From a virus: DNA of 53,459 nucleotides. This document shows, one piece after another, positions 3,215 through 53,459 of this stretch; the stretch's first letter is position 1; each line of letters starts with the position of its first letter. The notes below the pieces were generated by a model. It saw only the letters and a list, made by a program, of their open reading frames with translations. It was not told where the DNA came from and made no database searches. The stretch lies in IMG/VR virus record IMGVR_UViG_3300017987_000115, positions 1 through 53,459 of that record; one strand, written 5' to 3'. A program made the position numbers and the translations under genes.

Positions 3215-3236
3215 GAAGAAAAAAAATGAAACAGAA

Positions 3237-3367: not shown

Positions 3368-3374
3368 AATGAAA

Positions 3375-4688: not shown

Positions 4689-4690
4689 AA

Positions 4691-5062: not shown

Positions 5063-5070
5063 GAAAAGGA

Positions 5071-5107: not shown

Positions 5108-5194
5108 ATGAAAAGAAAATTGAAAAACGGAAATATGAAATTGGATGAAATGAAAAGGAATATGATATGAAATGTAAAAGAAAGAGAATTGGTT

Positions 5195-5314
5195 AACTCA
5201 AATGTTCCCCCCCCTCCCTCTGTTTCTTTTTAATTTAATTACTTGTGATTACGTTTGAATTTTAAAAGAAAAGAAAGAGAAGGAAAGGGGGGGGAGGGGG
5301 GAGAAGTTTGAGTT
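5195..5314. repeat. Long imperfect inverted repeat with C8/G8 runs
   Basis: AACTCAAATGTT followed by eight C, T, CCC (5195-5218) is mirrored by eight G, A, six G and then AAGTTTGAGTT (5287-5314). The outer 8 bp match exactly and the inner arms pair C-run to G-run. The G-strand has dense G runs that could also form a quadruplex. It lies 55 bases before the first packaging-module gene. Confidence 0.7.
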
Positions 5315-5369
5315 GAAGTTTAAGTGTGTGTTTTAAAAGAAATGAAAAGGAAAAAGAAAGGAAATGTAA

Positions 5370-5837: not shown

Positions 5838-5838
5838 C

Positions 5839-38002: not shown

Positions 38003-38214
38003 TGGTTACAGAATGGTACTGTGAAGTATGTTGGTGTAATTATTGGACTGATCCGTCATTTAGAATTGAGATATTGGGAAATCACGAAGGAAAAAATGAC
38101 GGAACCAAATTGTGGCTGTGTGTTTGTAAAAACTGCATGTTGGAGATAGTCGAGGAGTGTGAATGGAAGAGCGAGATCGCAATTAGTATTAGAAAAAATT
38201 TAAGGGGAGAGTAA
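38002..38214 (+). CDS. Small Cys-rich zinc protein, 70 aa
   Basis: It starts at ATG 38002 overlapping the previous stop. Two Cys clusters, CEVCWC at residues 7-12 and CVCKNC at about 40-45, could hold one zinc ion. The rest is acidic (VEECEWKSEIA). One of a dispersed set of small Cys-pair proteins in this phage. Function unknown. Confidence 0.6.
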   Translation: MVTEWYCEVCWCNYWTDPSFRIEILGNHEGKNDGTKLWLCVCKNCMLEIVEECEWKSEIAISIRKNLRGE

Positions 38215-38502
38215 ATGGGAGCGTACATTAATCCAAAGGGAATGGACAAAGAGGCTTGGCTTGATTTACACGGTAAACCTACGTGTGAAGAGAGCGTTTT
38301 ATATCACAAACCATTCGACGGTGGGTTGGTTGCTGTTTGTTTGGTTAACAATGGGCCGTTTACTGCAGCAGCTATCTTATTCGACGAAAGGGAGAAGAGA
38401 GACTTTAGTGGTCCGCATGATGCGAGACCCAAACAATGGTACTTTGTTGACGTTGAAGAAGTTAAAAACGTTTCAAATTTGGAGTGTTATATAAAAGACT
38501 GA
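38215..38502 (+). CDS. Hypothetical protein, 95 aa
   Basis: AGGGGAGA precedes ATG 38215. Small mixed protein (GGLVAVCLVNNGPFTAAAILFDE...) with no family match that I can recognise. It sits in a string of four short genes between the resolvase and ligase. Confidence 0.6.
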   Translation: MGAYINPKGMDKEAWLDLHGKPTCEESVLYHKPFDGGLVAVCLVNNGPFTAAAILFDEREKRDFSGPHDARPKQWYFVDVEEVKNVSNLECYIKD

Positions 38503-38514
38503 AAGGAGAGAGCA

Positions 38515-38790
38515 ATGAGTTTTCAAGTCGAAAACGTAACCGGGAAAAAAGTGATGAGCGTCAACGTTAGTCTGAGAGGGAATTTTTTAAGTGTGGGCAT
38601 GGACATATATTCAAACCGTTACAAGAGGCTCGCTACAAAGCAAATGAACAATCCAAACAGAACGCCTCCGACTCACTACGACAGTTTTACAATGACACAC
38701 GAACAGGCACTGATGCTCGCTTCTCTTATCTTAAAGAAGGCAGGGGACTTGGCAGACGAAGACAACTTTGATTCGAGGGACATACAATGA
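38515..38790 (+). CDS. Hypothetical protein, 91 aa
   Basis: AAAGGAGAG precedes ATG 38515. A beta-sheet N-terminal half (VSLRGNFLSVGMDIYSN) and a helical C-terminal half (HEQALMLASLILKKAGDL). It overlaps the next gene by ATGA. Function unknown. Confidence 0.6.
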   Translation: MSFQVENVTGKKVMSVNVSLRGNFLSVGMDIYSNRYKRLATKQMNNPNRTPPTHYDSFTMTHEQALMLASLILKKAGDLADEDNFDSRDIQ

Positions 38791-39017
38791 GTATCCCAAT
38801 AGCTCCAAAGTTTAAAGTAATAGCATGTGTAGGTCCGTATCAAATACTTAAAGACGACAAAGGTTTTTTCAGGGTTAAGCTTCCAGGCTATCCGATTAAA
38901 GCTGTCGAGTTTTTAACTGCCGACAAAGCCAAGTTTCAAGCAAGGAAAGCTTTGGAAAAACTACGTGCGGACGGTAAGCTGAAAGCCAGCTCGTCTGAAA
39001 GATACTGGAGACCGTGA
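38787..39017 (+). CDS. Hypothetical protein, 76 aa
   Basis: It overlaps the previous stop. Its pattern (YQILKDDKGFFRVKLPG... FLTADKAKFQARKALEKL) is a short beta hairpin followed by a helix, as in other small proteins of this genome (e.g. 3877). Function unknown. Confidence 0.6.
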   Translation: MSIPIAPKFKVIACVGPYQILKDDKGFFRVKLPGYPIKAVEFLTADKAKFQARKALEKLRADGKLKASSSERYWRP

Positions 39018-39018
39018 C

Positions 39019-40236
39019 ATGAGCAAGAAGGACAAACTCAGAGAAAAGATAAGAGAGTATGGTTTGCCTGGTCCGCTAATGGACTGCAGTGTAGACTTAA
39101 TCCAAAGAACGCTTGCAAAGCGTGTATGGGAATTGGAGCATCCAGATAAAAAGTTTCCAAAGCAGTACGATACTATGCTTGCTAAGGACGCTAGCAAACT
39201 TTCACGTGAAGAGTTTGAAGAAAAGTTCAGCAACGAAAACTGGATAGCCGAAACAAAGCTCAACGGGTGTAGGGGATTACTTATAATCAAGCCGTTGAAA
39301 AACGGAAAGCAAAACGTTCGGATACTTTCAAGACGTCGGTCTGTCAAGACCTTTCGGTATGAAGAGAAGCAAAACAAGCTTCCGCAATTCAAAGACTTTA
39401 AATGGCATGGCGTTAAAGGGTTGACAATTATAGACGGGGAACTTTATCATCCAGAGCAACGGGCAGTGACAGCGTCTGGCACGCAAACAGAAAGTAGACT
39501 TCAAAACGCAACGTCTATACTGAACTCGCTTCCTAGCAAGGCACTGAAGACCCAAAAGAAAATTGGATTTTTGCGTTTCTGTGCTTTCGACGTTTTGTAT
39601 TACAACGGAATGGATCTTCGGAAGCTTCATCTTGAGGAAAGGAAACACTACCTGTCAAAGTTCGGAGCCAACAACGAGTGCTATGTAACTGACATTGATA
39701 TGATGAAGGGTATGATGGTTAAAGAAAGAAACGTCTTCTTTGAGATCATAGGCTTTACAAGATACTTTGACCTTCACAAGCACAAGATCAACAAAAAGAA
39801 GGCAAGCTTCTTCAAGTACTTCATGTCAGAGGTTGAAGACGGCGAGGAAGGTATAATGTTGAAGCGTCTTGACTCTACATATCAATCTGGAAAGAGGTCC
39901 AAAGACTGGTACAAAATGAAGGCTCAACAGACGTTTGACGCCTTCGTAACCGGTTTTCTCCCAGGGCAGGGCCACTTGGCTGGGTTGGTTGGTTCGGTAC
40001 GTTTCTCGGCATATGTAAATGGCGAAGAAAAGATTATTGGAAAGGTCGGAGCTTTTCCACTCAAGGTTCGACAACGCATGACCGGAAAAAATGGAAAGTT
40101 GAAAAAGAAGTGGTACGGTAAGGTTGCCGAACTTCGAGGAGCAGACGTGACCAAGAATAAAAGACTGTTCCACTGTCAGCTTGTACGATGGAGAAAAGAC
40201 AAAGACCCGGACGACTGTGTTGTGGAATTTAAGTAA
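39019..40236 (+). CDS. ATP-dependent DNA ligase, 405 aa
   Basis: It seals nicks using ATP. Motif I is AETKLNGCRG with nucleophile Lys80; the usual KxDG Asp is Asn82 here. Motif Ia/III include RRRS and IDGELY, motif IV is EEGIMLKRLDS, and motif V is DWYKMKAQQ. A C-terminal OB-like region follows (ASVTGFLPGQGH... GKVGAFPLKV). It is complete. It starts 1 nt after the previous stop and belongs to the replication module. Confidence 0.9.
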   Translation: MSKKDKLREKIREYGLPGPLMDCSVDLIQRTLAKRVWELEHPDKKFPKQYDTMLAKDASKLSREEFEEKFSNENWIAETKLNGCRGLLIIKPLKNGKQNVRILSRRRSVKTFRYEEKQNKLPQFKDFKWHGVKGLTIIDGELYHPEQRAVTASGTQTESRLQNATSILNSLPSKALKTQKKIGFLRFCAFDVLYYNGMDLRKLHLEERKHYLSKFGANNECYVTDIDMMKGMMVKERNVFFEIIGFTRYFDLHKHKINKKKASFFKYFMSEVEDGEEGIMLKRLDSTYQSGKRSKDWYKMKAQQTFDAFVTGFLPGQGHLAGLVGSVRFSAYVNGEEKIIGKVGAFPLKVRQRMTGKNGKLKKKWYGKVAELRGADVTKNKRLFHCQLVRWRKDKDPDDCVVEFK

Positions 40237-40247
40237 GGAGAAGAGAG

Positions 40248-40520
40248 ATGATAGGTAAAGTAATTAAATGGGAGCAGTTGAATTATGAAGGGACCGTGTT
40301 TCAATTTACGTACGGGCCTTTTATCTTTCAGGTGAACACGCCGTGTCCCACTATATCGATCTACATGCCAGACGCTTGTTTCCTACCCAAGAGTTTGATC
40401 AATAATAAAGAAAGAGTTTTGGTGCGTATCTTTGAACGCAACTTGGGTCAAGTATCGTGGAAGTCTTTCAATGAAACTGTTGAAAGGTTTCTGAAGACTG
40501 TCTATGGAACAGACTGCTAG
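40248..40520 (+). CDS. Hypothetical protein, 90 aa
   Basis: AAGGAGAAGAGAG precedes ATG 40248. Beta-rich with a C-terminal helix (NETVERFLKTVYG). No family is recognised. It lies between ligase and nuclease genes. Confidence 0.6.
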   Translation: MIGKVIKWEQLNYEGTVFQFTYGPFIFQVNTPCPTISIYMPDACFLPKSLINNKERVLVRIFERNLGQVSWKSFNETVERFLKTVYGTDC

Positions 40521-40543
40521 GTTGTTTAGTTAAGGAGAGTACG

Positions 40544-40948
40544 ATGTCGGAAGAAAGACAAACATTCAAACTACGTTTCCAACCGGGTGACCTTGCTTGG
40601 ATCGTTAACAAAGACGGTTGGGTTCAGCTTGTTATAGTTCGTTCTGTTCATTGTTGTGAAGACGGATGCACATACTCGACTATCGGCATGTGTGGCGAAA
40701 GTATAAAGCTCAAAGACCGCAATGTAACAGATGCAGATATACTCCACTTTGACGATTGCAAAATACCTGGAGAATGGTGGAGGACAAACCTTTACTATGC
40801 AAAGGAAAAACTTATCGCCCATTGGAACGAAAACTACAAAAATCGTACAGACTTTGGCGATACAGAAGAAGATGAATGGATTGGGAAAGAAGATTATCCA
40901 ACTTATAGGCCAGGCGAACATCCTACAAAGGTGGTGGATCCGAGATGA
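40544..40948 (+). CDS. Hypothetical protein, 134 aa
   Basis: AAGGAGAG precedes ATG 40544. The N-terminal part looks like a small beta domain (FQPGDLAWIVNKDGWVQLV) with several Cys (HCCEDGCTYSTIGMCG), resembling an SH3-like or KOW-like fold. The C-terminus is acidic and Pro/Tyr-rich. It overlaps the next gene by ATGA. Function unknown. Confidence 0.6.
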   Translation: MSEERQTFKLRFQPGDLAWIVNKDGWVQLVIVRSVHCCEDGCTYSTIGMCGESIKLKDRNVTDADILHFDDCKIPGEWWRTNLYYAKEKLIAHWNENYKNRTDFGDTEEDEWIGKEDYPTYRPGEHPTKVVDPR

Positions 40949-41937
40949 AGTCTTTACTGGATAAAAAGAAGAAAAAGTATTCGGTCGAAAAAGACGGCAT
41001 TACACAAGGTCTGCTTCAGACCTGGATGAGCTGTCGTTACAAAGCACGTTTCTTTTTGGACGGCTGGCGAACAGTTGACACCAGAATGGCGCTGATTTTT
41101 GGTTCTCTTATTCACGGCATCAACGAGGCTGTATACAAAAAGGTTCGAAAAGGAAAAACAAAACATCCGCCTTCGACTAAAAAGATTAAGTCAATCACCA
41201 ACAAGGCTTCCAAGATTTGGATCAAAGACAATCCAAGAGCAAGCAAACGGGCAAGGGAAATGTTGGCTGAGTCTGTAATGATAGCCAATATTTTAATGCC
41301 GTTGTATTTTGAACGTTGGGAGAAAGATGATTTCAAAGAAGCAGTATGGCAAGAGGTGGAAGGAAAGTTTAATCTTCCTGTAAAATTGAAAGACGGAAGA
41401 CGTACAAGGTTCAGAGGAATGATAGACGGGTCTTTTCTTTCAAAAGGCCTTAACAAATTGTGGTTATTTGAAACTAAAACAGGTACAAGAATCAACCCGT
41501 TGAACCTTACAGACCGTTTGGCTTTTGATCTACAAGTTGGTTTCTACTTAAACGCTCTGTACAAACTTAAGGAAGCAATTCCTGAAGGCTTTCTTTACAA
41601 TAACATTCGTCGTCCAGAGCTTCGTATAAGAAAGAAAGAGTCTCTAAAACAATTCGCAGATAGGATGGAAAACGATATACAAAAAAGACCTGATTGGTAT
41701 TTTGTAAGGCTTCCGATATCTATATCAAAGAAAGAGTTTAAAGCAATACGCAAACAATTGTTTGTTATTGTACGAGAGTTTTATGATTGGTACGAAGGTA
41801 AGCTCGGACACTACAGATGTTCAGGACAGTGCGAAGGAAAGTACGGACGATGTGGATATCTTACAATGTGCGCAAACGGTGGAAAGCCGACTCCTATATA
41901 TGTAAACTCTGGTTTTAGTTATAGGGAGCTTGACTAA
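40945..41937 (+). CDS. PD-(D/E)XK nuclease, RecB/Cas4-like with possible Fe-S cluster, 330 aa
   Basis: The core pattern is clear: His57 in FGSLIHGINEAV (motif I helix), Asp in RFRGMIDGSFL, the E-x-K pair in WLFETKTG, and QVGFYLNAL (Q..Y). An early Cys30 (TWMSCRYKARFF) plus three or four late Cys (CSGQCEGKYGRCGYLTMC) give the layout of the 4Fe-4S cluster in AddB/Cas4 nucleases. It probably processes DNA ends for recombination with the Sak4-like ATPase. There are no CRISPR genes nearby, so it is not a Cas adaptation protein. Confidence 0.8.
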   Translation: MKSLLDKKKKKYSVEKDGITQGLLQTWMSCRYKARFFLDGWRTVDTRMALIFGSLIHGINEAVYKKVRKGKTKHPPSTKKIKSITNKASKIWIKDNPRASKRAREMLAESVMIANILMPLYFERWEKDDFKEAVWQEVEGKFNLPVKLKDGRRTRFRGMIDGSFLSKGLNKLWLFETKTGTRINPLNLTDRLAFDLQVGFYLNALYKLKEAIPEGFLYNNIRRPELRIRKKESLKQFADRMENDIQKRPDWYFVRLPISISKKEFKAIRKQLFVIVREFYDWYEGKLGHYRCSGQCEGKYGRCGYLTMCANGGKPTPIYVNSGFSYRELD

Positions 41938-42149
41938 TGAAAGCAAAATTGACTGGGTGGAAGTTTGAGATAGGTGAAGAAGCAAAAGTAGATGAATGGC
42001 CTGTGAAAGTCATAAGTAGATCTTTCTCTTATATAGAGAACAGTGGAGGGTTTGAGTCAATAGAAACTTATTACTGTGAGAACATTTCAGAAGACTCTGT
42101 TTGGTCTTATGAAAACTTTGATGTTGAAGATATGGAGAAGAAAAAATGA
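41937..42149 (+). CDS. Small acidic hypothetical protein, 70 aa
   Basis: It starts at the ATG sharing bases with the preceding stop. Acidic and aromatic, mostly beta (VKVISRSFSYIENSGGFESI), and it overlaps the next start. No family is recognised. Confidence 0.6.
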   Translation: MKAKLTGWKFEIGEEAKVDEWPVKVISRSFSYIENSGGFESIETYYCENISEDSVWSYENFDVEDMEKKK

Positions 42150-42973
42150 AGGTTGTAGTCTTAGGAGCTGGTCCGGTTGGTTGTATTGCCAAGAGGCGTT
42201 TAAACCTTGTGAATATCAACGGTAATCTTTTCGACTCTATGAGCTATGACGAAATTCACAAAAGAACATTTAACCATGGAGCTCATTATCTTTGGAAACC
42301 TATTGAAGGTTTTTCTGTTAAACGTTGTAGAATTATTACAACTGTTGACGGTGATCAGGCTGTTGAAGAAAGCGTGCGTCGTTACAAAACAAAGGTTGGT
42401 CGATACGAAGAAGGGCGTGATTGGTCTAGACAGTTCAAACCGAAGTCAAAAGGATATCGAATAATATCTTTCCCTGACGTTGTAATTAACCACCATCACA
42501 AAGCCAAACGTATTGACGTGGTAAACAAGACTGTCACATTTGCAAACGGAACAGAAGACCACTTTGACGTTATTATAAGCACAATTCCTCTGAACATCTT
42601 AGTCCAGATCTCTGGTATGGTGGACAGACCGCAGTCGGTATTTGAATATCGTGAAATATACGTATATGAAACTCCGAGTATGCGTTGTAAGAACGAAGAT
42701 ATGGTTGTAGACTATGACTCGTCACCTACAGAGTCTGTATACAGACGTACATATCGAGACGGAAAATGTCATGCAGAGTCATTGAAGAAGTTTGACAAGC
42801 CTGACGCTATTTTAACGCCTGGTAAGATATGGACAAATGAGGAGACTAGAGAATGGGTAGAGCGTTTAAAAAGTTACAATATACATTGCTTTGGACGGTT
42901 CGGTACTTGGGAGGAAGATGAACTCTTGCACCAGGCGTGTGAAAAAGTTCAGAACTTTGTGGAGGGACTGTAA
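42146..42973 (+). CDS. Rossmann-fold FAD/NAD-type oxidoreductase (amine oxidase/UDP-galactopyranose mutase-like), 275 aa
   Basis: It begins with a dinucleotide-binding loop VVVLGAGPVG (Gly7, Gly9, Gly12). A segment like FDVIISTIPLNILV, typical of the second FAD-binding region in flavin amine oxidase/protoporphyrinogen oxidase-type enzymes, follows at about residues 140-153. The end, HCFGRFGTWEEDELLHQACE, matches their C-terminal FAD-contact G.FG motif. The protein is short for these families, lacking much of the substrate domain. It lies next to nucleotide-metabolism genes; substrate unknown. Confidence 0.7.
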   Translation: MKVVVLGAGPVGCIAKRRLNLVNINGNLFDSMSYDEIHKRTFNHGAHYLWKPIEGFSVKRCRIITTVDGDQAVEESVRRYKTKVGRYEEGRDWSRQFKPKSKGYRIISFPDVVINHHHKAKRIDVVNKTVTFANGTEDHFDVIISTIPLNILVQISGMVDRPQSVFEYREIYVYETPSMRCKNEDMVVDYDSSPTESVYRRTYRDGKCHAESLKKFDKPDAILTPGKIWTNEETREWVERLKSYNIHCFGRFGTWEEDELLHQACEKVQNFVEGL

Positions 42974-43046
42974 TGTCAGGTTTCAGAGACCTTTCAATTA
43001 TATATGCAGTGACGTCATTGTCGCCGTTTATACTGTGGAGGACAAC

Positions 43047-44009
43047 GTGAAAGAGTTTGAAAAGATTTGGAAAGACCAGAGAGACTTTAATAAGAACTTC
43101 TTTCCAGCGCCAGAAACTTTCGACGATATGTCTGCTCAGACCAAAGAGCTAATACTTCATATGATGTCTGAGTGTGATGAGCTGTTGAGAGCAACGTCTT
43201 GGAAAATTCATAGGCGCAATAATAACAAGCCAAATCCTGAACAAGTGCGTGAAGAGCTTACAGACATATTCAAGTATTGGATTTCACTATGCCAGGTATG
43301 GGGAGTTTCACCGAAGCAAGCTGTCGAGGATTACTGGAGGAAAAGTATGGTAGTCCGCCAACGATATTCTGAAGAGTTTGTAATGCGTTTGAGCAAACAC
43401 CGGATAGCTCTCTTTGATATAGACGGTGTTATAGCTGACTATTGTAATGGATTTTTAAGTTGGTTGATACGAGAAGCCTCTGCGGATTCGTTAAAGTCGT
43501 TGGCTGATAGGGCAAGAAATCTTGTAGATTCTCAAGTATGGATGTGCGCCGAGTCGTTGAAAATTGGTGAAGGAAAGTGGCAGGAGCTTAAACATAGGTT
43601 CAGAGTTACAAGAGGAAAAGTCTATTTGCCTGTGTTTAAAGACTCTCTCTATCTTCTAGACCTTTGTAGGCAAAAGGGATTTAAAATCGTTCTTTTGACC
43701 AGTAGGCCGATTGACAGGTATCCTAATATATACACAGATACTCTGGAATGGCTCAATAAGCATTCAATTCCATTCGACGCCATCTGGTGGTCGTCCGATA
43801 AAGACGAGATGCTTCTCTCCAGAAACTTGCTACCTAATATTGATTTTATGGTTGAAGACAATCTTCGATACGCAGATCAAATGGCGAATATCGGAGTCAA
43901 GGTTTATTTAATCAATAGATCAAATAAACCTATAGATGTTGGACGTAAAAAGTATAAGCGTCCTGGACAAATTAAAATAATCAAATCATTAGAAGAGGTG
44001 AAGGTATGA
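43047..44009 (+). CDS. MazG-like pyrophosphatase fused to HAD nucleotidase, 320 aa
   Basis: GGAGG at 43037-43041 precedes GTG 43047 by 5 nt. Residues 25-110 form an all-alpha NTP pyrophosphatase/dUTPase-like domain with the ExxE (SECDELL, about residues 41-47) and ExxxD (EELTDIF, about residues 69-75) metal sites. Residues about 118-300 form a HAD phosphatase: DIDGVIAD with Asp124 and Asp126, LTSRP, and a late VEDNLRYAD, as in 5'(3')-deoxyribonucleotidases. A fused dNTP pyrophosphatase plus dNMP phosphatase would drain a chosen nucleotide pool. It is beside a ThyX-like gene. Confidence 0.8.
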   Translation: MKEFEKIWKDQRDFNKNFFPAPETFDDMSAQTKELILHMMSECDELLRATSWKIHRRNNNKPNPEQVREELTDIFKYWISLCQVWGVSPKQAVEDYWRKSMVVRQRYSEEFVMRLSKHRIALFDIDGVIADYCNGFLSWLIREASADSLKSLADRARNLVDSQVWMCAESLKIGEGKWQELKHRFRVTRGKVYLPVFKDSLYLLDLCRQKGFKIVLLTSRPIDRYPNIYTDTLEWLNKHSIPFDAIWWSSDKDEMLLSRNLLPNIDFMVEDNLRYADQMANIGVKVYLINRSNKPIDVGRKKYKRPGQIKIIKSLEEVKV

Positions 44010-44224
44010 CTGGACATCGAGATCACGAGTTTGTTGTAATTGAAAGTAAAAGGCTGGACTTACTTTTGAAGTCTGCAGGATGCCTAGTAACAGGCGACCT
44101 TACAGTGCCTGAATGGAGAGCTAGACTTAAAAAAGCAGTCGCAGACGTTAAAAAGAACGGAAGGATACTATCAGAGGTTATAGATGACGCTCTGAAAAAA
44201 CTTTTAGTGGAGGAAGAAAAATGA
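44006..44224 (+). CDS. Small hypothetical protein, 72 aa
   Basis: It overlaps the previous stop by ATGA and the next start likewise. Its N-terminus MTGHRDH matches the start of the following ThyX-like protein (MNGHRDH), in DNA as well. The rest is helical and charged (EWRARLKKAVADVKKNGRIL). It may be a small partner derived by partial duplication. Function unknown. Confidence 0.6.
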   Translation: MTGHRDHEFVVIESKRLDLLLKSAGCLVTGDLTVPEWRARLKKAVADVKKNGRILSEVIDDALKKLLVEEEK

Positions 44225-45279
44225 ACGGGCATAGAGATCATGCAAGGTTTACAGGGGAGGCTCCTAAGACTCCAATCGATAGGGGTCCTTTTGGACTGAA
44301 AGTTTCTCTTGATATGTGGGGACCGAAAGAAAACTTGATGGCGCACATATGGAATGAGCTAACAGCCAATTGGGGCAACGAACCTGCAAGAGTTGAAAAA
44401 GACGAAGATCTTACAACTCCGGAGATGGAACACGTGTACGAGGCGTTTGCAGGTAAAACTCTGTCACAGGTTCTTGAAGGCGTTCACTTTTGGTTCACTA
44501 TCGACGGTGTGACAAGAGCGTGCACACACCAGTTGGTTCGGACACGTATTGGAGCTGCTATGATGCAACATGGCGGACGTGATAACGACTGGCGACATCG
44601 TCCGTGGACAATGCCGGAAACGATTCATCGTGCGTGTAGTTATTTTGATAGAGAGCCTGCGGAGAAGTTTAAGTACGATGACCGCTCTTATCAAATGCAT
44701 CCGTGTGTAAGAGATCGAGAGGCTTTGGACAATTATATATACGGATCTGACGTAGACGGCGATATGGTTAAGTTAAAGCTCAGGGACCGCGTCTTTGAAG
44801 TTGTAGATGAATGCAAACAGTTATATGCAGCACTTGTTGATGCAGGTATTCCGTGGCAAGATGCTCGGAGGGTACTTCCCATTGGCCTGCAGACTTACAT
44901 TCATATCAACTACAACTACCTTGCTTTGAAAGGCGTGTTGGCAAATCGACTCGAGCATGTGATGGATTGGGAGATTAACTGCGTGTCTCAGCTGATGTTA
45001 CGTGAAATCAAAATGAAGTGCCCGTCAATATTCTCCAAGAACCTCGGTTCGCATTCTGATCGAATGAAGAAAGCAGCGTTTGAGAATATGGAGTCATGGC
45101 CTCCTGACGGAAAGTACGCTTCTGATAAGATGGGTGACGTGAGAACCCACAATCGAACGCAGATGCCGTTTTGGGTTCTTTCTCCAGAATCAATGGAGGG
45201 TGGTCCTATCGAATGGATACCTACCAATGGAATATATCCCAAAAATCTTAGACCAAAAGGAGAGAATAATGTCAAGTAA
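44221..45279 (+). CDS. thyX: ThyX-like flavin-dependent thymidylate synthase family protein with altered motif, 352 aa
   Basis: The fold signature is present: a helix with THQLVRTRIGAAMMQHGGRD (residues 102-121) equals the ThyX motif region, and QDARRVLPIGLQTY... NRLEHVMDWEINCVS near residues 217-258 is the ThyX C-terminal substrate/FAD helix. However the canonical RHR...S signature reads R107-T108-R109...H117, so the Ser that positions dUMP appears replaced by His. It may be a divergent ThyX or an enzyme that adds a different group to a pyrimidine nucleotide. It is flanked by the MazG-HAD fusion. Confidence 0.75.
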   Translation: MNGHRDHARFTGEAPKTPIDRGPFGLKVSLDMWGPKENLMAHIWNELTANWGNEPARVEKDEDLTTPEMEHVYEAFAGKTLSQVLEGVHFWFTIDGVTRACTHQLVRTRIGAAMMQHGGRDNDWRHRPWTMPETIHRACSYFDREPAEKFKYDDRSYQMHPCVRDREALDNYIYGSDVDGDMVKLKLRDRVFEVVDECKQLYAALVDAGIPWQDARRVLPIGLQTYIHINYNYLALKGVLANRLEHVMDWEINCVSQLMLREIKMKCPSIFSKNLGSHSDRMKKAAFENMESWPPDGKYASDKMGDVRTHNRTQMPFWVLSPESMEGGPIEWIPTNGIYPKNLRPKGENNVK

Positions 45280-46114
45280 AAAGAAGAAGACTACAAAGAA
45301 AAAAGCTTCGACGGGTCCGGTACGTTTACCTACAGAACGTTCCAAGCCCAAGCAAAAACTTTCTTCTTATTCCATACTTTTGTATGGTGAGAAGAAGGTC
45401 GGAAAGACTACAATGTGTGCCGAGCCTGAGGCCACTTTGTTTGTACCTTTTGAGCCAGGCACAAAGGCTTTGTCGGTATTTGAAATGAAACCAGAGGACT
45501 GGGGACACTTCAAAAAGATTGTCAATGCATTATGCAAAGACAAAAAGAACAGGTTCAAGACTGTTGTCATCGACACTGTGTCAGTTGCTTACAAACGTTG
45601 TTGGGAGTGGGTTTGCAAGCAGCATGTCATTGGACACCCGTCTGAGGAGAAGTGGGGCAAGGCCTGGACTGACATCTCAGACGAGTTTACAAAGACGTTC
45701 GACAAGCTAATTCATTCTGGAAAAGGCGTTATATTCGTCGCCCATTCTCACACCCAGAGAATCGAGACTGTCGACGACGAGTATGACCATATCTCTCCTG
45801 CACTCCCAAAACAAGCGAACGAATACTTCTCTGCCATTGTCGATATCTGGGCATACTATGGTTATCGAAAAGGCAAAAGGTACCTTACGATTAACGGAGA
45901 CGAAAGCGTTGCAGCTGGTCAGCGTATACCTGGTAGATTCTTGACACCAAAAGGCAAGAGACTTAAAAGGATTTACATGGGTGATAACTCTAAAGAAGCC
46001 TACAGTAATTTTGTTAAGGCTTTTAACAATACATACAAGCCACCAAAGGAGGTGACGAAGTCAAAAGTTAAAAAGACCAAGAAAAAGAGTCTCAAAAAGA
46101 AGTCCAAAAAATAA
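45269..46114 (+). CDS. Sak4-like single-strand annealing ATPase (AAA_24 / RecA-like), 281 aa
   Basis: AAAAGGAGAG precedes ATG 45269, which lies inside the ThyX-like stop. Walker A is YGEKKVGKTT at residues 39-48, Walker B near residues 92-98 (FKTVVIDTVS). The flanking VPFEPGTKALSVF and FVAHSHTQRIE segments match AAA_24/Sak4 proteins, phage RecA-like recombinases. N- and C-terminal Lys-rich tails (SSKKKKTTKKKAS; KKTKKKSLKKKSKK) are unusual. The ssDNA-binding partner follows directly. Confidence 0.85.
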   Translation: MSSKKKKTTKKKASTGPVRLPTERSKPKQKLSSYSILLYGEKKVGKTTMCAEPEATLFVPFEPGTKALSVFEMKPEDWGHFKKIVNALCKDKKNRFKTVVIDTVSVAYKRCWEWVCKQHVIGHPSEEKWGKAWTDISDEFTKTFDKLIHSGKGVIFVAHSHTQRIETVDDEYDHISPALPKQANEYFSAIVDIWAYYGYRKGKRYLTINGDESVAAGQRIPGRFLTPKGKRLKRIYMGDNSKEAYSNFVKAFNNTYKPPKEVTKSKVKKTKKKSLKKKSKK

Positions 46115-46129
46115 AAGGAGAAAAGTGAA

Positions 46130-47080
46130 ATGAGTCTCAAGAGCATTTTGAAGAAGGGTCAGAAGAAATGGAAGAAGGCCCGCAAAGACGCCGAGAATAT
46201 GGGGAAGTCCCAGGTGGAAGACGGAAGGTACGTTGCGAAACTTGTTGAGGTAAAGCCCGGCAAGTCTCAGGCAGGACGCGATCAGATTGTGTTCACGTAC
46301 AAGATTCTGGAGGGCAAGCCCAAAGGCAAGAAGGTTTCTTCCTTCGAAGGAATTGAAACCGAAAAGAACCTCATGTTCCTCGCAAACAAGATTTCGAAAT
46401 TTGGATACGAGGTTCCCGAAGATGCGACTGAAATTGTCGACGTGGTCGAAGAGCTTCAGAAAGAGAAGCCGACATGTCGCATCCGTGTCAAGGACAACGA
46501 CGGCTTTGCCAACGTTTATCTTGACGGTCTCGTAGACGAGGAAGAAGTCGAAGAGTCCGAAGAAGAAGAAGAAGAAGAAGAAGACGAAGACGAAGACGAA
46601 GAAGAGTCCGAGGATGACGACGAGGAAGAAGAGTCGGAGGACGAGGATGAAGACGAAGACGAAAACGAAGAAGAGTCCGAAGAAGAAGAGGACGACGAGT
46701 CCGAAGAAGAAGACGACGAAGATGAAGATGATGAAGAAGATGACGAAGAAGAGGAAGAAGAAAACGAAGAAGAAGAGGACGAAGACGACGAAGAAGGGGA
46801 CGATGCCGACGAAGACGAGGATGAGGAAGAGGAAGGCGAAGAAATCACAAAGGGCATGAAAGTTCTCGTCAAGAAAGGCAAGAAGAAGCTTCCCGGAAAG
46901 GTCACCAAGATTTTTGAAAAGGACGAAGCGGTCAACGTCAAGCTCGATGATGGCAAGCTCTTGAAAAAGGTTTCCATCGACAAGCTCGAAGAGTACGACG
47001 AAGACGAAGTTCCCGAGGAGCCCAAGAAAAAGTCAAAGGGCAAAAATGGAAAGTCCAAAGGCAAGAAAAAGAAAAAGTAG
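46130..47080 (+). CDS. DUF669-type ssDNA-binding protein with long acidic linker and Tudor/KOW-like domain, 316 aa
   Basis: AAAAGGAG precedes the start. Residues 28-130 match DUF669 (DGRYVAKLVEVKPGKS..., IVFTYKILEGKPKGKKV), the SSB-like partner usually beside Sak4. Residues 137-242 are almost pure Glu/Asp, about 105 residues, coded by a GAAGAA/GACGAA repeat. A KOW/Tudor-like domain follows (GMKVLVKKGKKKLPGKVTKI) and a Lys tail. An acidic tail is typical of SSBs for protein contact, but here it is internal and very long. Confidence 0.75.
   Translation: MSLKSILKKGQKKWKKARKDAENMGKSQVEDGRYVAKLVEVKPGKSQAGRDQIVFTYKILEGKPKGKKVSSFEGIETEKNLMFLANKISKFGYEVPEDATEIVDVVEELQKEKPTCRIRVKDNDGFANVYLDGLVDEEEVEESEEEEEEEEDEDEDEEESEDDDEEEESEDEDEDEDENEEESEEEEDDESEEEDDEDEDDEEDDEEEEEENEEEEDEDDEEGDDADEDEDEEEEGEEITKGMKVLVKKGKKKLPGKVTKIFEKDEAVNVKLDDGKLLKKVSIDKLEEYDEDEVPEEPKKKSKGKNGKSKGKKKKK
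46540..46850 (+). repeat. Low-complexity GAA/GAC-rich tract inside the DUF669 gene
   Basis: About 310 bases consist mainly of GAA, GAC, GAG and GAT codons in irregular tandem runs, encoding the acidic linker. Such tracts expand and contract by slippage, so length should vary between relatives. The codon mix (GAA with GAC and occasional TCC) shows it is not a simple trinucleotide run. Confidence 0.8.
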
Positions 47081-47101
47081 CGTGAGCGAAACTTCTTTAA
47101 T

Positions 47102-47127
47102 GGGAGGGAGGCTTCGGCCTCTCTCCC
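47102..47127 (+). terminator. UUCG-tetraloop hairpin after DUF669 gene
   Basis: GGGAGGGAGGC (47102-47112) and GCCTCTCTCCC (47117-47127) pair with one wobble around TTCG. No U-run follows; instead TTCTGCAATTCTAAATTATAATT begins (given in parts: GCAATTCT at 47132, TATAAT at 47144). The same motif follows the hairpins at 2570 and 3237. Confidence 0.7.
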
Positions 47128-47161
47128 TTCTGCAATTCTAAATTATAATTAGGAGTTCAAA

Positions 47162-47779
47162 ATGGAGCCTTTGAAAGTTTTCAAACCTATGCCAATGAAT
47201 ATGAGGGAGCGTCTCACAGACGAGTTTTTCGTAGAGTGCAGGTCTATTCTGGAAAAGAAGGGTAAAGATTACTCTCCAGACGACGAGGCGTTTGGCGAGA
47301 TCATAAAAATGGCACGTGCAACTAACACGTCGCCAGAACAGGTTATGTTTATCTACATGTTCAAGCACTGGTCTGCTATCCAGAGCTATGTGAAAAGAGG
47401 ACGTGTAGAGTCAGAAGAGATTCACGGAAGACTGAGTGACCTTGCAAACTACGCTGCACTAATGTCTGCTTTTATAAAGTTTTACAGGTCGGGAACTGTA
47501 AATGGCAAATCCAACGTTGAAATTTTTGATGACGATTACTATAACTTTAAACACGGTGACAAGGTAAAACTTAATCCAACCGTAAAGTTTGAAGAAATCA
47601 ACGAAGACCTTATGGACGCGTATGCTTGGACGATTGAACAGGGTGTGAAAGAGTGCAGTGATTATGTTGTTGAAGGAAAATCGTTCATAGACTCTCAAAT
47701 AAAAGAACGTCCTAAGTTCATGAAACTAAAAGAATTTCCAAATAGGGTTTTTCTTAGAAGATTGTTTGTAAGGGTTTAA
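47162..47779 (+). CDS. DUF1599/Nmad1-like protein (nucleotide modification-associated), 205 aa
   Basis: Residues 24-100 match DUF1599: CRSILEKKGKDYSPDD (residues 26-41), a MFKHWSAIQSY helix and the closing GRLSDLANYAAL. This family, also called Nucleotide modification associated domain 1, is MazG-related and was proposed from genome context to act in phage nucleotide or base modification. Residues 110-205 are an extra C-terminal domain of unknown type. AGGAG (47151-47155) is 6 nt before ATG 47162. It precedes the polymerase gene. Confidence 0.75.
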   Translation: MEPLKVFKPMPMNMRERLTDEFFVECRSILEKKGKDYSPDDEAFGEIIKMARATNTSPEQVMFIYMFKHWSAIQSYVKRGRVESEEIHGRLSDLANYAALMSAFIKFYRSGTVNGKSNVEIFDDDYYNFKHGDKVKLNPTVKFEEINEDLMDAYAWTIEQGVKECSDYVVEGKSFIDSQIKERPKFMKLKEFPNRVFLRRLFVRV

Positions 47780-47780
47780 C

Positions 47781-49718
47781 ATGGCACGTCTTAAATTAAA
47801 AAGAAAGATTCGTGCTGAACAGTCCGGAATGAACAAGCTTCGTGGAAAGTATATAGCTCTTGACACGGAAACTACTGGACTGATTCCGTACGGACCTTGC
47901 AAACACTGGGGCTTCTATCCTGCCAGACCTTTTGCCTTTTCTTTTTGTGACTGGTACGGTAACAAGGCTTATATACGTTGGGAAGTCGATCCAAAAACAC
48001 GTCGTGTTATACAAGAGAAAAAGACTGCTAAGATGATACAAGACCTTCTTGATAAGAAGGGAGTTGTAATCATATTCCACAACGCTTCATACGACTTGAA
48101 GATGATACAGTTTTCAGGTTTTGAGATACGCGGCAAGTATCACGACACTATGATTATGGCTCACGTTGTGACCGGAGGAAGTGAATTTACGTATGCACTT
48201 AAACCTATTACAGACAAGTTTTTTGACTTCCCACAACAAGACCAGAAAGATCTAATTGAAAGTGTCAGGTCAGCGTGGAAGCAAAACAAAAAAGTGCATC
48301 CTGAGTGGAAGTTCGCAGATAAAGCGTTCCAAGGAAGGCAACCTGTACAAGCAGACTATTGGATGGGTAATAGAAGGCTTTGCAAAAAGTACGCTGTTCA
48401 AGACGCAGTACGTACAATGTTGCTTTATCAGTTTTTGATAAAGAAGCTGAATAAAGATAAAGTACTTAAAGACGTTTACAGAAGAGAGATGCGGCTCCTT
48501 CCTGTTCTTGAAAAAATGGAACTGAAAGGTATGATGGTTCGCAAAGAAAAAGTTCTAGAACTGATAGAATACTATGAGAACTATATGAAAAAGCAGTTGA
48601 GGAAAGCAAATAAAGAAGGTGGTGGTAAAGACCTAAACTTCAGAAGTCATAAACAGTTAGTTAACGTATTCTTTGAGATACGGAAACACAAGCCAGAATT
48701 CTTTACACCTGGCGGAGCTCCCAAGATGGATAGCAAAGTACTTGGACGTCTCGCTGAGAAGGACAAGCTTGCCAAAGCTATTCTGGAGTATAGAACTGCA
48801 GCCCACGCTATTTCAGGTTTCCTTGAACCGTACACTAGGTTTTGGGTACCGGAAGATGGCCTGATGGTTTTACATCCAAACTTTAGACAAGTTGGAACTG
48901 TTACGGGACGGTTGTCTTGCTCAGATCCAAACTTGATGACAGTTTCTTCTGCGTCAACAGGTCGTCGTCGTTCAGATGTTGTAGAGCGTCCTCGTGAAGC
49001 TTTTGGACCTAGACCTGGTACCGTTTGGTACCTACCGGACTATTCACAGATTGAAGTGTGGCTTTTCTCTTTTATGTCTGGTGAGAAGGGTATGCAAAAA
49101 GCCTTGATGAGCGGATACGACTTCCATGGCTCGGTTGCAAATGATGTTTGGGGCAAAGAGCAAAACTTTAAAGAACGTTATAAGTATTGGAGGAAAAGAG
49201 CTAAAATTGTAATGTTCTGTAAGTTGTACGGAGGCGGAGCCAAAGCTGCTTCCAGACTTTTGGAGTGTTCGGTTGAAGAGGCAGAGGACTTTATATCAAA
49301 GTTCGATATGAGGTTTCCAGGTGTCAATAGATTTCAAAGACGTATGATCAACAGGGCAAACAGGCAGGGCTTCGTAAGAAATAAGTTTGGAAGGATTTAT
49401 TACTTACACCACAGCCAGTCTTATCGTGCAGTCAATTACCTTATACAAGGAACTGCCGCAGACATTTTGAAGAACGCTTTGTACTATGTTGATAAGATGT
49501 TGAAAGAGAAGTGGCCTGGTTGCAGTCTTTTGCTTCCTTTGCACGATGAAATATGTGTCGAAGTTCCTCTCGAGTACCACAGCAAGAGGCTTATGAGAGA
49601 AGTAATATTTGAAATGCAAAGAGACTCTGACAGGGTTGGTGTTCCAAAGCCGTTACCTGTTGGAATGAAAATATGTAAGACCCATTGGGATGAAACTACA
49701 GAAATTGAGAATGTATAA
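47781..49718 (+). CDS. polA: DNA polymerase I family A with 3'-5' exonuclease, 645 aa
   Basis: The exonuclease domain has ALDTETTG (Asp28, Glu30), a later HNASYDLK and KYAVQDAVRT. The polymerase domain has motif A DYSQIEVWLF at about residue 420, motif B in WRKRAKIVMFCKLYGGG, and motif C HDEICVE at about residue 588. The motif A Arg usual after Glu is replaced by Val-Trp, and the residue equal to E. coli Phe762 is Phe. It lacks the 5' nuclease domain. It is the phage replicative polymerase, beside the primase-helicase. Confidence 0.95.
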   Translation: MARLKLKRKIRAEQSGMNKLRGKYIALDTETTGLIPYGPCKHWGFYPARPFAFSFCDWYGNKAYIRWEVDPKTRRVIQEKKTAKMIQDLLDKKGVVIIFHNASYDLKMIQFSGFEIRGKYHDTMIMAHVVTGGSEFTYALKPITDKFFDFPQQDQKDLIESVRSAWKQNKKVHPEWKFADKAFQGRQPVQADYWMGNRRLCKKYAVQDAVRTMLLYQFLIKKLNKDKVLKDVYRREMRLLPVLEKMELKGMMVRKEKVLELIEYYENYMKKQLRKANKEGGGKDLNFRSHKQLVNVFFEIRKHKPEFFTPGGAPKMDSKVLGRLAEKDKLAKAILEYRTAAHAISGFLEPYTRFWVPEDGLMVLHPNFRQVGTVTGRLSCSDPNLMTVSSASTGRRRSDVVERPREAFGPRPGTVWYLPDYSQIEVWLFSFMSGEKGMQKALMSGYDFHGSVANDVWGKEQNFKERYKYWRKRAKIVMFCKLYGGGAKAASRLLECSVEEAEDFISKFDMRFPGVNRFQRRMINRANRQGFVRNKFGRIYYLHHSQSYRAVNYLIQGTAADILKNALYYVDKMLKEKWPGCSLLLPLHDEICVEVPLEYHSKRLMREVIFEMQRDSDRVGVPKPLPVGMKICKTHWDETTEIENV

Positions 49719-49924
49719 TGGCTATGAGTAAACGGCTATTGTGCCAAAAAATATGCAGGTTGTCAAGAATAGTAAGAACTAGACACGGTTGTTCGAGTCT
49801 TCAAAAAGATGAACTTAAACAGCTGTATAGTTATCTTTCACTTAAGCAGAAAGAAGTAGAAGACCTCGAGCTAGAGATCTCAAGATTAAGGACTCAGCTT
49901 AAATCGAAAGGCAAGTATAAATGA
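49718..49924 (+). CDS. Small coiled-coil protein, 68 aa
   Basis: It overlaps the polymerase stop and the next start (ATGA). The C-terminal half is a predicted coiled coil (LKQKEVEDLELEISRLRTQLK) and the N-terminus carries Cys and Arg. It may be an accessory linker between replication proteins. No family is recognised. Confidence 0.6.
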   Translation: MAMSKRLLCQKICRLSRIVRTRHGCSSLQKDELKQLYSYLSLKQKEVEDLELEISRLRTQLKSKGKYK

Positions 49925-52035
49925 TAAACCAAAAAACGTTTACGACGCATGGCGTCAACTTTACTGGAGAGTCGGGCGACCAGTGGACCGGAGACTGCCC
50001 TTTCTGTAGTAAAGAGGGAAAGTTTTACGTTAACGTCAACAATGGACTTTGGGATTGCAAGACGTGCGGTTTAAACGGAAACATTTCTGAATTTTTGAAT
50101 CAGACGTCTCTTATTTACAAGAAAAGGCTTAAGAAAAAATTACTGATTAAGCTCGCCAAGGATAGGGGTCTTCCTTCAAAGGCTTTCAAAGGATTAGATA
50201 TCGGATGGAATGGAAAGTCGTTTACTTTTCCTGTCAGAGATGCGAAGGGAAAAGTTGCAGATATTAGAATGTTTAAAACCGGATCAAAGTTTATACGTAG
50301 TACTCCAGGATGCAAGACAGGTTTATTAGGGCTAGATAAAATTGGAGAAAATGTTGAAGAGCCTATTATAGTATGTGAAGGAGAGTGGGACAAAGTTGCT
50401 TTAGATTTCCTTTTGAAAAAAGTGGGAAAACCTGGAAAGGTTGTAGCTGTTCCAGGGGCACAAGTTTTTAAGCAGCATTGGGTTCCGTATTTTGACGATA
50501 GAATTGTATACGCAATGTATGACAATGACAACCCTGGAGAGAACGGAGAACTTGTTCTTGAAAAAAGACTGACAGGGACTGCAAGTGAACTCTGGTATTT
50601 GCATTGGATAGAAAAACTTCCGTCTGGTTTTGATGTACGTGACTACGTGATCCGTGCACGTCGAGACAAAAAATTCAAAAAGTATTATAAGTCCATTATG
50701 TCAATGCTTCGGTCCTCTCCGAGGAAAGAGACTTCTAAGGATACAACGTATTTGAATGAAAAGGGTAAGAAGGTTATAACGAAAAAAGTTAAACCAATCT
50801 CTCTTAAGAAGGTATTTAAGGCATTCAACAAATGGTTGTATCTACCTAATACAGACGCGATTGAAGTTACACTTGCTGTAATGGCTTCGAATAAAATGGA
50901 AGGAGATCCGTTATGGATGTTTCTTGTCTCTCCTCCAGGGTCTTGTAAGACTGAAACGCTATCGTCTTTATCGAAATGTAAAAATGACGTATACGCAACG
51001 TCTTCTCTTACGCCTCATTCGTTAATATCTGGAGCGTCCTGGGTTGAAGGATCTGATCCAAGTTTGATACCGAGGTTGAATGGAAAGGTTCTTGTTATAA
51101 AAGACTTTACAACAATCATGCAGAAAAGGGAGCAAGAGCGTGATGAGATATTTGGTATCCTCAGAGACGCTTATGATGGTAAGTGTTCTAAGGTTTTTGG
51201 AACTGGTATTACTCGAAGCTACTCTAGCAGCTTTTCTGTTCTCGCTGCGGTCACACCACGTATATATGAAGTTGCGGAAAGCCATCAGTCGCTTGGAGAG
51301 AGATTTCTGAAATTTACAATGGCCGATAACATGAAACATTACTCTGAGGAAGAAATTATTAACAAGGCCATTTCAAACGTTAACAAAGAGAATAAGATGA
51401 AAGACGAATTGGCAAACGCTGTATATGCTTTCATGCAAAATAAATATTTGGGTTTCGTACCCGATATGCCAGACGAGGTAAAAGCGAAGATTATTGCATT
51501 GGCGAGGTTCGGTGCAAGAATGCGTGGCACTGTATCTAAAGAAAAACATCGACAAGACATTGTAAAGTCAAGACCGTCTGCGGAAGTTGGAACTCGAATC
51601 GCAAAACAGTTAACAAAACTTGCGTACTCGCTTGCAATGATAAGGAATAAAAAGTCTGTAGGTGACAGGCAGTATAAATTGGTTAAGAAGACTATGCTAG
51701 ATACTATTCCACAAAGGTCAGAGGATATTGTACGTCTTCTTTTCAAGAAGTGCAAGACTATTGACGATACATTAACAACAAAAGAAATTTCTCATGGAAC
51801 CAAGTATCCGCTTGCAACTGTGTTTAGAATTTTATCAGACATGGTTATGCTGGAAATAGTATTACAAGTTGGTCCGGCAGGTAAGCATCAGTATACACTT
51901 TCACCTTATATACGAAAGCATTTAAAGACAGCAGAACTGTACACAACGTCTGAAGAGTTGAATAGAACGTCGATGATGAGAAAACGTTTAAAGATGAAGA
52001 AGAAAAGGAAAAGAAAAAAGTTGGTGATCGTTTGA
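49921..52035 (+). CDS. Primase-helicase with zinc finger, Toprim and P-loop domains, 704 aa
   Basis: Order of domains: zinc finger with Cys26, Cys29, Cys46 and Cys49 (CPFC ... CKTC); Toprim near residues 140-205 (IIVCEGEWDKVA, YAMYDNDNPG); a P-loop ATPase with SPPGSCKTE at about residue 337, then KVLVIKDFTT as Walker-B-like; and a C-terminal winged-helix segment (TTKEISHGTKYPLATVFRIL). The basic end is RLKMKKKRKRKK. It resembles phage and plasmid primase-helicases that have a CHC2-type zinc primase joined to an AAA-type helicase. It likely initiates lagging-strand synthesis. Confidence 0.85.
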   Translation: MINQKTFTTHGVNFTGESGDQWTGDCPFCSKEGKFYVNVNNGLWDCKTCGLNGNISEFLNQTSLIYKKRLKKKLLIKLAKDRGLPSKAFKGLDIGWNGKSFTFPVRDAKGKVADIRMFKTGSKFIRSTPGCKTGLLGLDKIGENVEEPIIVCEGEWDKVALDFLLKKVGKPGKVVAVPGAQVFKQHWVPYFDDRIVYAMYDNDNPGENGELVLEKRLTGTASELWYLHWIEKLPSGFDVRDYVIRARRDKKFKKYYKSIMSMLRSSPRKETSKDTTYLNEKGKKVITKKVKPISLKKVFKAFNKWLYLPNTDAIEVTLAVMASNKMEGDPLWMFLVSPPGSCKTETLSSLSKCKNDVYATSSLTPHSLISGASWVEGSDPSLIPRLNGKVLVIKDFTTIMQKREQERDEIFGILRDAYDGKCSKVFGTGITRSYSSSFSVLAAVTPRIYEVAESHQSLGERFLKFTMADNMKHYSEEEIINKAISNVNKENKMKDELANAVYAFMQNKYLGFVPDMPDEVKAKIIALARFGARMRGTVSKEKHRQDIVKSRPSAEVGTRIAKQLTKLAYSLAMIRNKKSVGDRQYKLVKKTMLDTIPQRSEDIVRLLFKKCKTIDDTLTTKEISHGTKYPLATVFRILSDMVMLEIVLQVGPAGKHQYTLSPYIRKHLKTAELYTTSEELNRTSMMRKRLKMKKKRKRKKLVIV

Positions 52036-52382
52036 GGATTGAATTTTACAAAAAAGAATTGTGGGAATATGGACAGTATGTTTTGCACTTTATTAAAAGA
52101 CGTGACTTCAAAGGTTCTATACTTTATAAAGACGAGATACCAATTTCATGTATTCCTGGAGAAGGAGTCATACTTGAATACCTTAGACGAAAACAATGCA
52201 TGCCGGTTCTCGATGGGGTAGGAAACTTTTTTAGACTTTTAATTCATTTTATGTCGAGAGACGGTCGAGACTTCAAACAGTTCGATGGAAGATTGGCTAT
52301 TGTGGCTTTGATGAAAGGCTTGAGTTTTTTACACGGAAGAAAGGTTGAAGAATGCCAAGGAGAAAAGAAAGTTCCGTTTTAA
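52032..52382 (+). CDS. Hypothetical protein, TTG start, 116 aa
   Basis: The frame begins at TTG 52032, overlapping the primase-helicase stop; no ribosome binding site is evident, so translation may be coupled. Helical, with FKGSILYKDEIPISCIPGEG in the middle. No family is recognised. It overlaps the next gene by 31 nt. Confidence 0.55.
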   Translation: MRIEFYKKELWEYGQYVLHFIKRRDFKGSILYKDEIPISCIPGEGVILEYLRRKQCMPVLDGVGNFFRLLIHFMSRDGRDFKQFDGRLAIVALMKGLSFLHGRKVEECQGEKKVPF

Positions 52383-52702
52383 ATCAACCTGGTCAGATTA
52401 AAATTTTAGACTTTCACCGTTTTTCAGGTTGGAGTAGGAGAGGAACTGTCTATAGAATTGGACTTCGAATACCGCAATTTGACTTTCCAACTCTTCCTGG
52501 TATGGATTTTAAACCTAAAGTTATTTCCAGTGCAAGACGTTTAGATAATAAGGCGTGGTCGTTCTTTGCGTCGTGTGCAGGGTACTCAGACGTTGCTGTG
52601 AAAGACGGTACGATATTTGTATATGGAAATGGCGAAAATGACCTTGCTGAAAGAGTCTCGTATTGGCTAAAATGTAAAAAGTGGAGGGTAGTACTTCTAT
52701 GA
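52352..52702 (+). CDS. Hypothetical protein, 116 aa
   Basis: It starts at ATG 52352 inside the previous gene, with GAAAGG upstream. Beta-rich centre (VYRIGLRIPQFDFPTLPGMDF), then VAVKDGTIFVYGNGENDLAERV. No known family by eye. Its stop overlaps the glycosyltransferase start. Confidence 0.55.
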   Translation: MPRRKESSVLNQPGQIKILDFHRFSGWSRRGTVYRIGLRIPQFDFPTLPGMDFKPKVISSARRLDNKAWSFFASCAGYSDVAVKDGTIFVYGNGENDLAERVSYWLKCKKWRVVLL

Positions 52703-53459
52703 GTTTGTTTATGAAAAAAAGAACTCTTGGGATAATAGTTACCACTGCGTATCCAAATATAATGCGTGACATGTTTATGAAAACCATAGACAATATAAGT
52801 CACATCAAAAATAGGTCCGTACTTTTGATAAATTTCTTGGACAAGGCGTATACAAAAGGTCAGGTGAAGGAAGTAAAAAAGATATTAAAGTCCAAGGGTT
52901 GGAAAGTTAGATGTACCACTCATAGAACAGACCCAGGCATGTCCCCAAAACTTATATGGTTGAGAGAGTCCGCGTGCCAACTTTTTCCAGATGCAAAGTA
53001 TTATCTTATAACAGACGACGACATGAAATTTGGATCGGGTACTCTGAAGTATAATATACCTGCAGGACAGAGGTATCTGGAGTGCCTTGATTACATTGGC
53101 AGATTTGAAAATTGCTGCGGCGTAATGTGCAAAGGCTTCCTAGGCGGATACATACAACAGTTGAAAATTAAACCCACGTGGCATTGTGTCTACTCTATTG
53201 ACAAGGGAATGTTTTTAAGGAACGGCATGCCGATTTTGGGTTATCATATCTCACCTCCAGAAACTTGGAAACTTTACGGAGGGTACGCTGAAAAACCGTC
53301 GTCGTTTGGATGGATTTCAAAAGGCTATTGGTTTGCAAAGCAAATGAATGTTCCAATAATACATAGACCTGAGAAGAAAACTTACAAAAAGTCGAAAAGA
53401 AGTATGCACAGTTTAAAGGTCGTAACTGACAATGTTGGAAAGTACCTAGAAAAAGTTTA
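52699..53459 (+). CDS. GT-A-type glycosyltransferase, partial (cut by window end), at least 253 aa
   Basis: ATG 52699 overlaps the previous stop; GGAGGG lies 9-14 nt upstream. The frame is open to the window edge. A GT-A fold is indicated by the start GIIVTTAYPN and by YLITDDDMKF at about residues 102-111, where DDD (106-108) is the metal/sugar-nucleotide DxD motif. A later GCGVMCKGFLGGY segment is also GT-like. It may glycosylate DNA bases, as phage beta-glucosyltransferases do, or host/virion surfaces; the window cannot decide. Confidence 0.75.
   Translation, partial: MSLFMKKRTLGIIVTTAYPNIMRDMFMKTIDNISHIKNRSVLLINFLDKAYTKGQVKEVKKILKSKGWKVRCTTHRTDPGMSPKLIWLRESACQLFPDAKYYLITDDDMKFGSGTLKYNIPAGQRYLECLDYIGRFENCCGVMCKGFLGGYIQQLKIKPTWHCVYSIDKGMFLRNGMPILGYHISPPETWKLYGGYAEKPSSFGWISKGYWFAKQMNVPIIHRPEKKTYKKSKRSMHSLKVVTDNVGKYLEKV

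Follow-up and report, generated by a model that had tools for sequence, protein, structure and literature searches.

A conserved phage gene cassette pairs an altered ThyX with a short flavoprotein and may modify DNA pyrimidines

The IMG/VR virus record IMGVR_UViG_3300017987_000115 is a linear sequence of 53,459 bases, referred to here in its entirety as the window. Because it encodes a portal protein, a major head protein and a tape measure protein, the window derives from a tailed phage. Beside its replication genes we found a set of + strand genes, reading rightwards from position 42146, that begins with a small flavoprotein, a fusion of a MazG/dUTPase-type domain to a HAD phosphatase domain, a small open reading frame (ORF) and a ThyX-like protein. 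These genes form a conserved phage cassette, whose probable role, stated with some reserve, is to supply phage DNA with a non-canonical pyrimidine nucleotide that would protect it. A preliminary description of the window had proposed a pyrimidine-modification kit mixed into the replication module; the kit is real and is larger than that description had it. The proposal gains from the finding that an altered ThyX, the flavoprotein and a HAD protein lie beside the polymerase gene in many unrelated phages, and it has to be revised for two of its original members, a terminal glycosyltransferase and a protein labelled DUF1599/Nmad1-like, which are discussed below.

The two putative flavoenzymes occur as a pair. 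The ThyX-like protein has lost the histidine of the RHR signature, as have its relatives throughout their clade, and this non-RHR clade pairs nearly one to one with the flavoprotein, a short relative of UDP-galactopyranose mutase (UGM) that we call the mini-UGM. When whole records were searched with a profile, a mini-UGM was found in 11/11 records encoding a ThyX with an R[TSNQ]R motif and in 0/13 with a canonical ThyX (12 with RHR and one with KHQ). Ten of the 11 positive records had contributed to the profile; the remaining one, Ranch, scored 2.2e-50. Dryad had been chosen through its mini-UGM, and Ranch, Wollypog, Onyinye and Terapin through ThyX similarity alone. A wider survey took in 301 IMG/VR loci retrieved by ThyX patterns that omit the motif, a locus being counted if at least 9 kb upstream was available. 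Here the mini-UGM was present at 72 of the 78 non-RHR loci and at none of the 63 RHR loci, a difference whose Fisher value of 1e-33 overstates its significance, as the loci are not independent. The six exceptions comprise three RQR loci and three RSR loci retrieved with the canonical query. The latter three (L305, L325 and L326), which have no mini-UGM within the flank, may have lost the RHR histidine independently or may be misaligned. The mini-UGM is as diagnostic of the kit as the ThyX itself.

The ThyX-like protein of the window (44221-45279, + strand, 352 amino acids) matches PF02511 with E=2.1e-21 and 77 bits, against a gathering score of 24.8. It falls below the equivalog cut-off set by NCBI for TIGR02170 (62.8 versus 87.9 bits), and the ThyX-like protein of Pbunavirus F8 lies just below the same cut-off at 87.8 bits. 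Its signature reads THQLVRTRIGAAMMQHGGR, with RTR in place of RHR, a change common to 12/12 sampled members of the window's family. The full RHRX7S signature is likewise absent (RTRIGAAMMQHGGR): this family has another residue in place of the X7S serine, together with a one-residue insertion. The changed signature noted in the preliminary description is therefore borne out. What the cassette proteins share with ordinary ThyX is the fold, the conserved core, the HQ-VR-R context and the C-terminal helices; what sets them apart is the R[TSNQ]R motif, seen in 23/23 aligned cassette members, and the almost constant mini-UGM partner. A maximum-likelihood tree built with the motif columns removed placed 23/23 cassette ThyX proteins on one side of a branch with support of 96/94, in a topology with several long branches; even with the motif disregarded, these proteins group as one clade. 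The window's protein falls in that clade; clustering with ordinary ThyX families, the outcome named beforehand as telling against the modification proposal, was not seen. At one cassette locus (L076) the ThyX motif is RTH rather than RTR, and a mini-UGM is still present.

The flavoprotein (42146-42973, + strand, 275 amino acids) by itself matches only phrog_8720 (8.8e-9), a family without an assigned function. A profile of its family matched the UGM structure 4dsg at 1.6e-9, or at 2.8e-11 with a wider profile, and the leading Foldseek matches of its predicted model were all UGMs (4dsh, 1.4e-10), the model being of modest quality (pLDDT 69.7, pTM 0.65). Arginine R200 of the window's protein, invariant in 15/15 members, aligns with R327 of UGM in Aspergillus fumigatus numbering, which is the substrate arginine of the enzyme. 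The dinucleotide-binding motif, the YFP...YR motif containing that arginine and the C-terminal GRF-W flavin motif are likewise retained. Judging from profile and model, 42146-42973 belongs to the UGM superfamily, which refines its earlier description as a small FAD-type oxidoreductase. It is also homologous to the corresponding Pbunavirus/Wifcevirus family (hhalign E=3.4e-14). It is not a full-length UGM with a complete substrate domain: the UGM profile aligns to it in two pieces, and mini-UGMs are about 275-330 amino acids long, against 465-510 for the best-matched eukaryotic UGMs. Mini-UGMs also differ from these in being linked to ThyX and HAD.

This resemblance raises the possibility that the cassette serves sugar-nucleotide metabolism. 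The mini-UGM would then produce a furanose-type nucleotide sugar, a glycosyltransferase would place the sugar on DNA, virions or the host surface, and the ThyX and HAD genes would be a separate, adjacent pool unit. The UGM-like fold with its R327 equivalent fits this explanation, as do a GT-A glycosyltransferase gene within the block in relatives of the window and a Rhizobium phage relative of the window's terminal glycosyltransferase candidate that has genes for UDP-glucose epimerase and pyruvyl transferase close by. Set against these are a deficit of about 190-235 amino acids relative to the matched UGMs, the near-strict linkage of the mini-UGM to the non-RHR ThyX clade, and the absence of a glycosyltransferase of the cassette family from most carriers. 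Because 0/11 isolated cassette phages encode one, we lowered our estimate of a UDP-galactofuranose route as the main explanation, and we regard the whole alternative as improbable.

Between the mini-UGM and ThyX genes lies the MazG-HAD fusion (43047-44009, + strand). Its Pfam matches are to dUTPase_2 (1.6e-4, the best match of the N-terminal domain), MazG-like (3.6e-3) and HAD (0.06), and it has HAD-type PHROG matches down to 9e-14. Both halves of the fusion claimed in the preliminary description are thus found in one protein, by matches that are weak but consistent. The true start is probably the GTG at 43047 rather than the TTG at 42891, because GGAGG precedes it and the resulting length agrees with that of relatives. 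The small ORF that separates this gene from the ThyX gene (44006-44224, + strand) has no Pfam match.

The block is found again in 19 further IMG/VR contigs, with its gene order kept over as much of it as each contig covers and with ThyX identities of 47-62%. One additional contig, L002, is identical throughout to window positions 37018-53459 (16,442 bases). Given these occurrences in about 20 IMG/VR contigs, and others in many isolated phages, the block does not owe its genes or their order to chance. Searches by tblastn with the proteins of Wifcevirus ECML-117 returned the ThyX-like protein in 461 records and the mini-UGM in 359, both counts including 291 Pseudomonas, 27 Escherichia, 9 Serratia and 6 Xanthomonas records. 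A mini-UGM and a ThyX lie beside the polymerase gene in ECML-117, Pbunavirus F8, Carpasina, Cronobacter phage Ss1, Streptomyces phage Dryad, Mycobacterium phages Gumball and Onyinye, Gordonia phages Ranch and Terapin, and Arthrobacter phage Wollypog, and nearly all of these neighbourhoods also encode HAD and MazG/DUF-like domains. In Rhizobium phage TM2_3B the two genes are no more than about 7 kb apart and adjoin ribonucleotide reductase genes. Some isolated phages add a short-chain dehydrogenase/reductase (SDR), a methyltransferase or both, and Dryad encodes a dCMP deaminase. That unrelated phages keep the kit at a fixed site, beside their polymerase and recombination genes, speaks against a role in host takeover, in which the kit would poison or drain host pyrimidine pools or degrade host DNA and phage DNA chemistry would not be involved. 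Such pools would be within reach of a HAD nucleotidase and MazG-type domains; we nonetheless consider this explanation very improbable.

How might the cassette produce a non-canonical pyrimidine? The MazG/dUTPase-type domain and the HAD phosphatase could remove a canonical nucleotide that competes, or else trim an intermediate. The altered ThyX would transfer a one-carbon unit to C5 of deoxyuridine monophosphate (dUMP) or deoxycytidine monophosphate (dCMP) and leave the ordinary methyl group unfinished. In the ThyX reaction, dUMP passes through a C5-methylene adduct, which can be caught as 5-hydroxymethyl-dUMP; release of a hydroxymethyl product by an altered ThyX is therefore conceivable. This would be the simplest outcome, and a 5-hydroxymethylpyrimidine intermediate is possible, if on the doubtful side. 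The mini-UGM, with its flavin fold and R327 equivalent retained, may then carry out flavin chemistry on the nucleotide made by the altered ThyX, and the phage polymerase would incorporate the modified nucleotide. Optional decoration might follow, by the SDR or methyltransferase in some phages and by a GT-A glycosyltransferase in the window's close relatives. In its broadest form, the proposal is that a widespread and so far unnamed base-modification pathway is built on two flavoenzymes, a reaction-changed ThyX clade and a mini-UGM acting on its product, and is common to Pbunavirus, Wifcevirus and actinophages with lineage-specific glycosyl, methyl or oxidative decoration. We put forward this wider version tentatively, as plausible rather than probable.

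The least improbable alternative is an ordinary thymidylate supply, in which the MazG/dUTPase-type domain yields dUMP, the HAD domain tunes nucleotide pools, the ThyX variant makes deoxythymidine monophosphate (dTMP) despite its substituted RHR histidine and the mini-UGM is a flavin or folate helper dedicated to it. The clearly retained ThyX fold, the dUTPase_2 match of the N-terminal domain and the dCMP deaminase of Dryad are all in keeping with it. Yet canonical phage ThyX does without a mini-UGM at 63/63 survey loci and in 13/13 whole records, dTMP production needs no phosphatase, the optional glycosyltransferase, methyltransferase and SDR genes differ among phages, and the resistance of Wifcevirus to restriction-modification is left with no other known cause. 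On balance we judge a plain thymidylate supply unlikely.

Several observations do weigh against the production of a modified pyrimidine. A search for ThyA (PF00303) that included positive controls found none in the 11 cassette phages or the window contig, which leaves the ThyX-like protein as a possible source of dTMP for the phage. The accessible literature yields no nucleoside data for any cassette phage. A Pbunavirus study used HindIII, EcoRI or XbaI restriction maps (PMC6521218); DNA that is cut by such ordinary enzymes with A/T-rich sites is unlikely to have its thymine replaced in bulk by a bulky base, at least in Pbunavirus. Finally, the cassette glycosyltransferase is found neither in the window nor in any of the 11 isolated cassette phages.

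Other literature favours modification, in a supportive but indirect way. Wifcevirus phages withstand most restriction systems by a mechanism that is not known. The substrate of END nucleases is modified DNA (PMC12904381), an inhibitor of these nucleases is encoded by a Pbunavirus (PMC12390725), and a new nuclease defence from the first author of the END nucleases is reported in Pbunavirus host-range work (PMC12908700); Pbunavirus, which these citing papers link to END nucleases, carries the cassette. Taken together, pyrimidine modification is the most likely of the explanations considered, and it is unproven.

Known modification systems offer partial parallels. Thymidine hypermodification in phages of the ViI, M6 and SP10 type starts from a ThyA-type dUMP hydroxymethylase. 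As in those phages, a relative of thymidylate synthase is encoded in the replication region along with tailoring enzymes; unlike them, the cassette phages and the window have no gene of the ThyA family. A 2021 survey of jumbo phages goes no further than to name thymidylate or a modified pyrimidine as what thymidylate synthase or ThyX produces (PMC7824862). Work on Pbunavirus DNA may already have covered part of our finding. The ThyX/mini-UGM pair occurs in hundreds of sequenced phages, including Pseudomonas aeruginosa phages used in therapy, where the annotations of the two genes read "thymidylate synthase" and "hypothetical protein". Should the modification proposal be true, a common misannotation would be corrected, the resistance of Wifcevirus to most restriction systems would be accounted for, and modification-dependent nucleases would gain a candidate target in Pbunavirus.

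The preliminary description also assigned a decorating glycosyltransferase to the window, and this part of the claim stands for its relatives rather than for the window itself. In 12 of the 19 related contigs, a GT-A protein of 277-295 amino acids is encoded between the Sak4 and DUF669 genes. A predicted model of it (pLDDT 76) matched GT-A enzymes in Foldseek, with TarP (6h4f) at 6.6e-9 and probability 1.00. Its best PHROG match is beta-glucosyl-HMC-alpha-glucosyltransferase in 9/10 members, a weak match with a best E of 0.0015, and 3/10 members match the Pfam TAGT family (TET-associated glycosyltransferase) weakly, at 16.9 bits against a gathering score of 27.5. Like T4-type and TET-associated DNA glucosylation enzymes, then, the relatives' GT-A protein is encoded in the replication module and shows weak similarity to them in its first 100 residues, whereas it lies below the Pfam cut-off and its gene is missing from the window. 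The slot is empty in the window (46115-46129), in its copy L002, and in L019 and L021.

The gene that had been called a glycosyltransferase in the window (52681-53459, + strand) is cut by the contig end. It has no Pfam, PHROG or PDB sequence match, and a profile of the cassette glycosyltransferase (A2) does not match it; the two are not orthologous. Its tblastn relatives are distant, in Rhizobium phages (2e-4 to 4e-4) and Streptococcus phage GXN1 (7e-12), and the Rhizobium relative lies about 40 kb from ThyX, near the surface-sugar type genes mentioned above. We therefore rejected its membership of the cassette as unproven; this candidate glycosyltransferase may serve another role, and a glycosylation step is not supported for the window. 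Extending the sequence to the right, as had been suggested, yielded nothing further, as the only overlapping contig, L002, stops at the same base; either both assemblies broke there or the right end is a true terminus.

A further neighbour, the + strand gene at 47162-47779, had been labelled DUF1599/Nmad1-like, a label we did not recover: no Pfam match of that name appeared up to E=0.1, and the protein matches only PHROGs of unknown function, phrog_6802 (1.5e-9) and phrog_1485 (7.8e-4). The latter family is also touched by the cassette proteins Gumball gp64 and Terapin gp62, which hhalign does not link to 47162-47779. Homology to the DUF domains of the actinophage and Pbunavirus cassettes received no support from hhalign, and a role as a MazG-like helper is possible.

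The remaining genes of the run, all on the + strand, are of recognizable replication and recombination types. Directly after the ThyX gene comes a Sak4/AAA_24 recombinase (45269-46114; PF13479 5.6e-40, phrog_124 6e-38), whose ORF is open from 45200 and whose likely start is the ATG at 45269. Its usual partner, a DUF669 protein (46130-47080; PF05037 2.2e-6), is a neighbour outside the cassette core and contains a very long acidic run in its middle. In L007 (6777-7367, phrog_799), and with similar genes in L012 and L020, a DNA methyltransferase-like gene stands between DUF669 and the polymerase, an interval in which none was seen in the window. Beyond 47162-47779 lie a family A DNA polymerase with a 3'-5' exonuclease domain (47781-49718; PF00476 6.9e-69) and a primase/helicase-type protein (49921-52035; phrog_47 8.5e-25), followed by the terminal gene. 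At the DNA level, none of the 50,697 phage records searched matched the region. At the other end of the window, long open frames are scarce on both strands in positions 1-6000 compared with the rest, and the portal frame starts at 8188.

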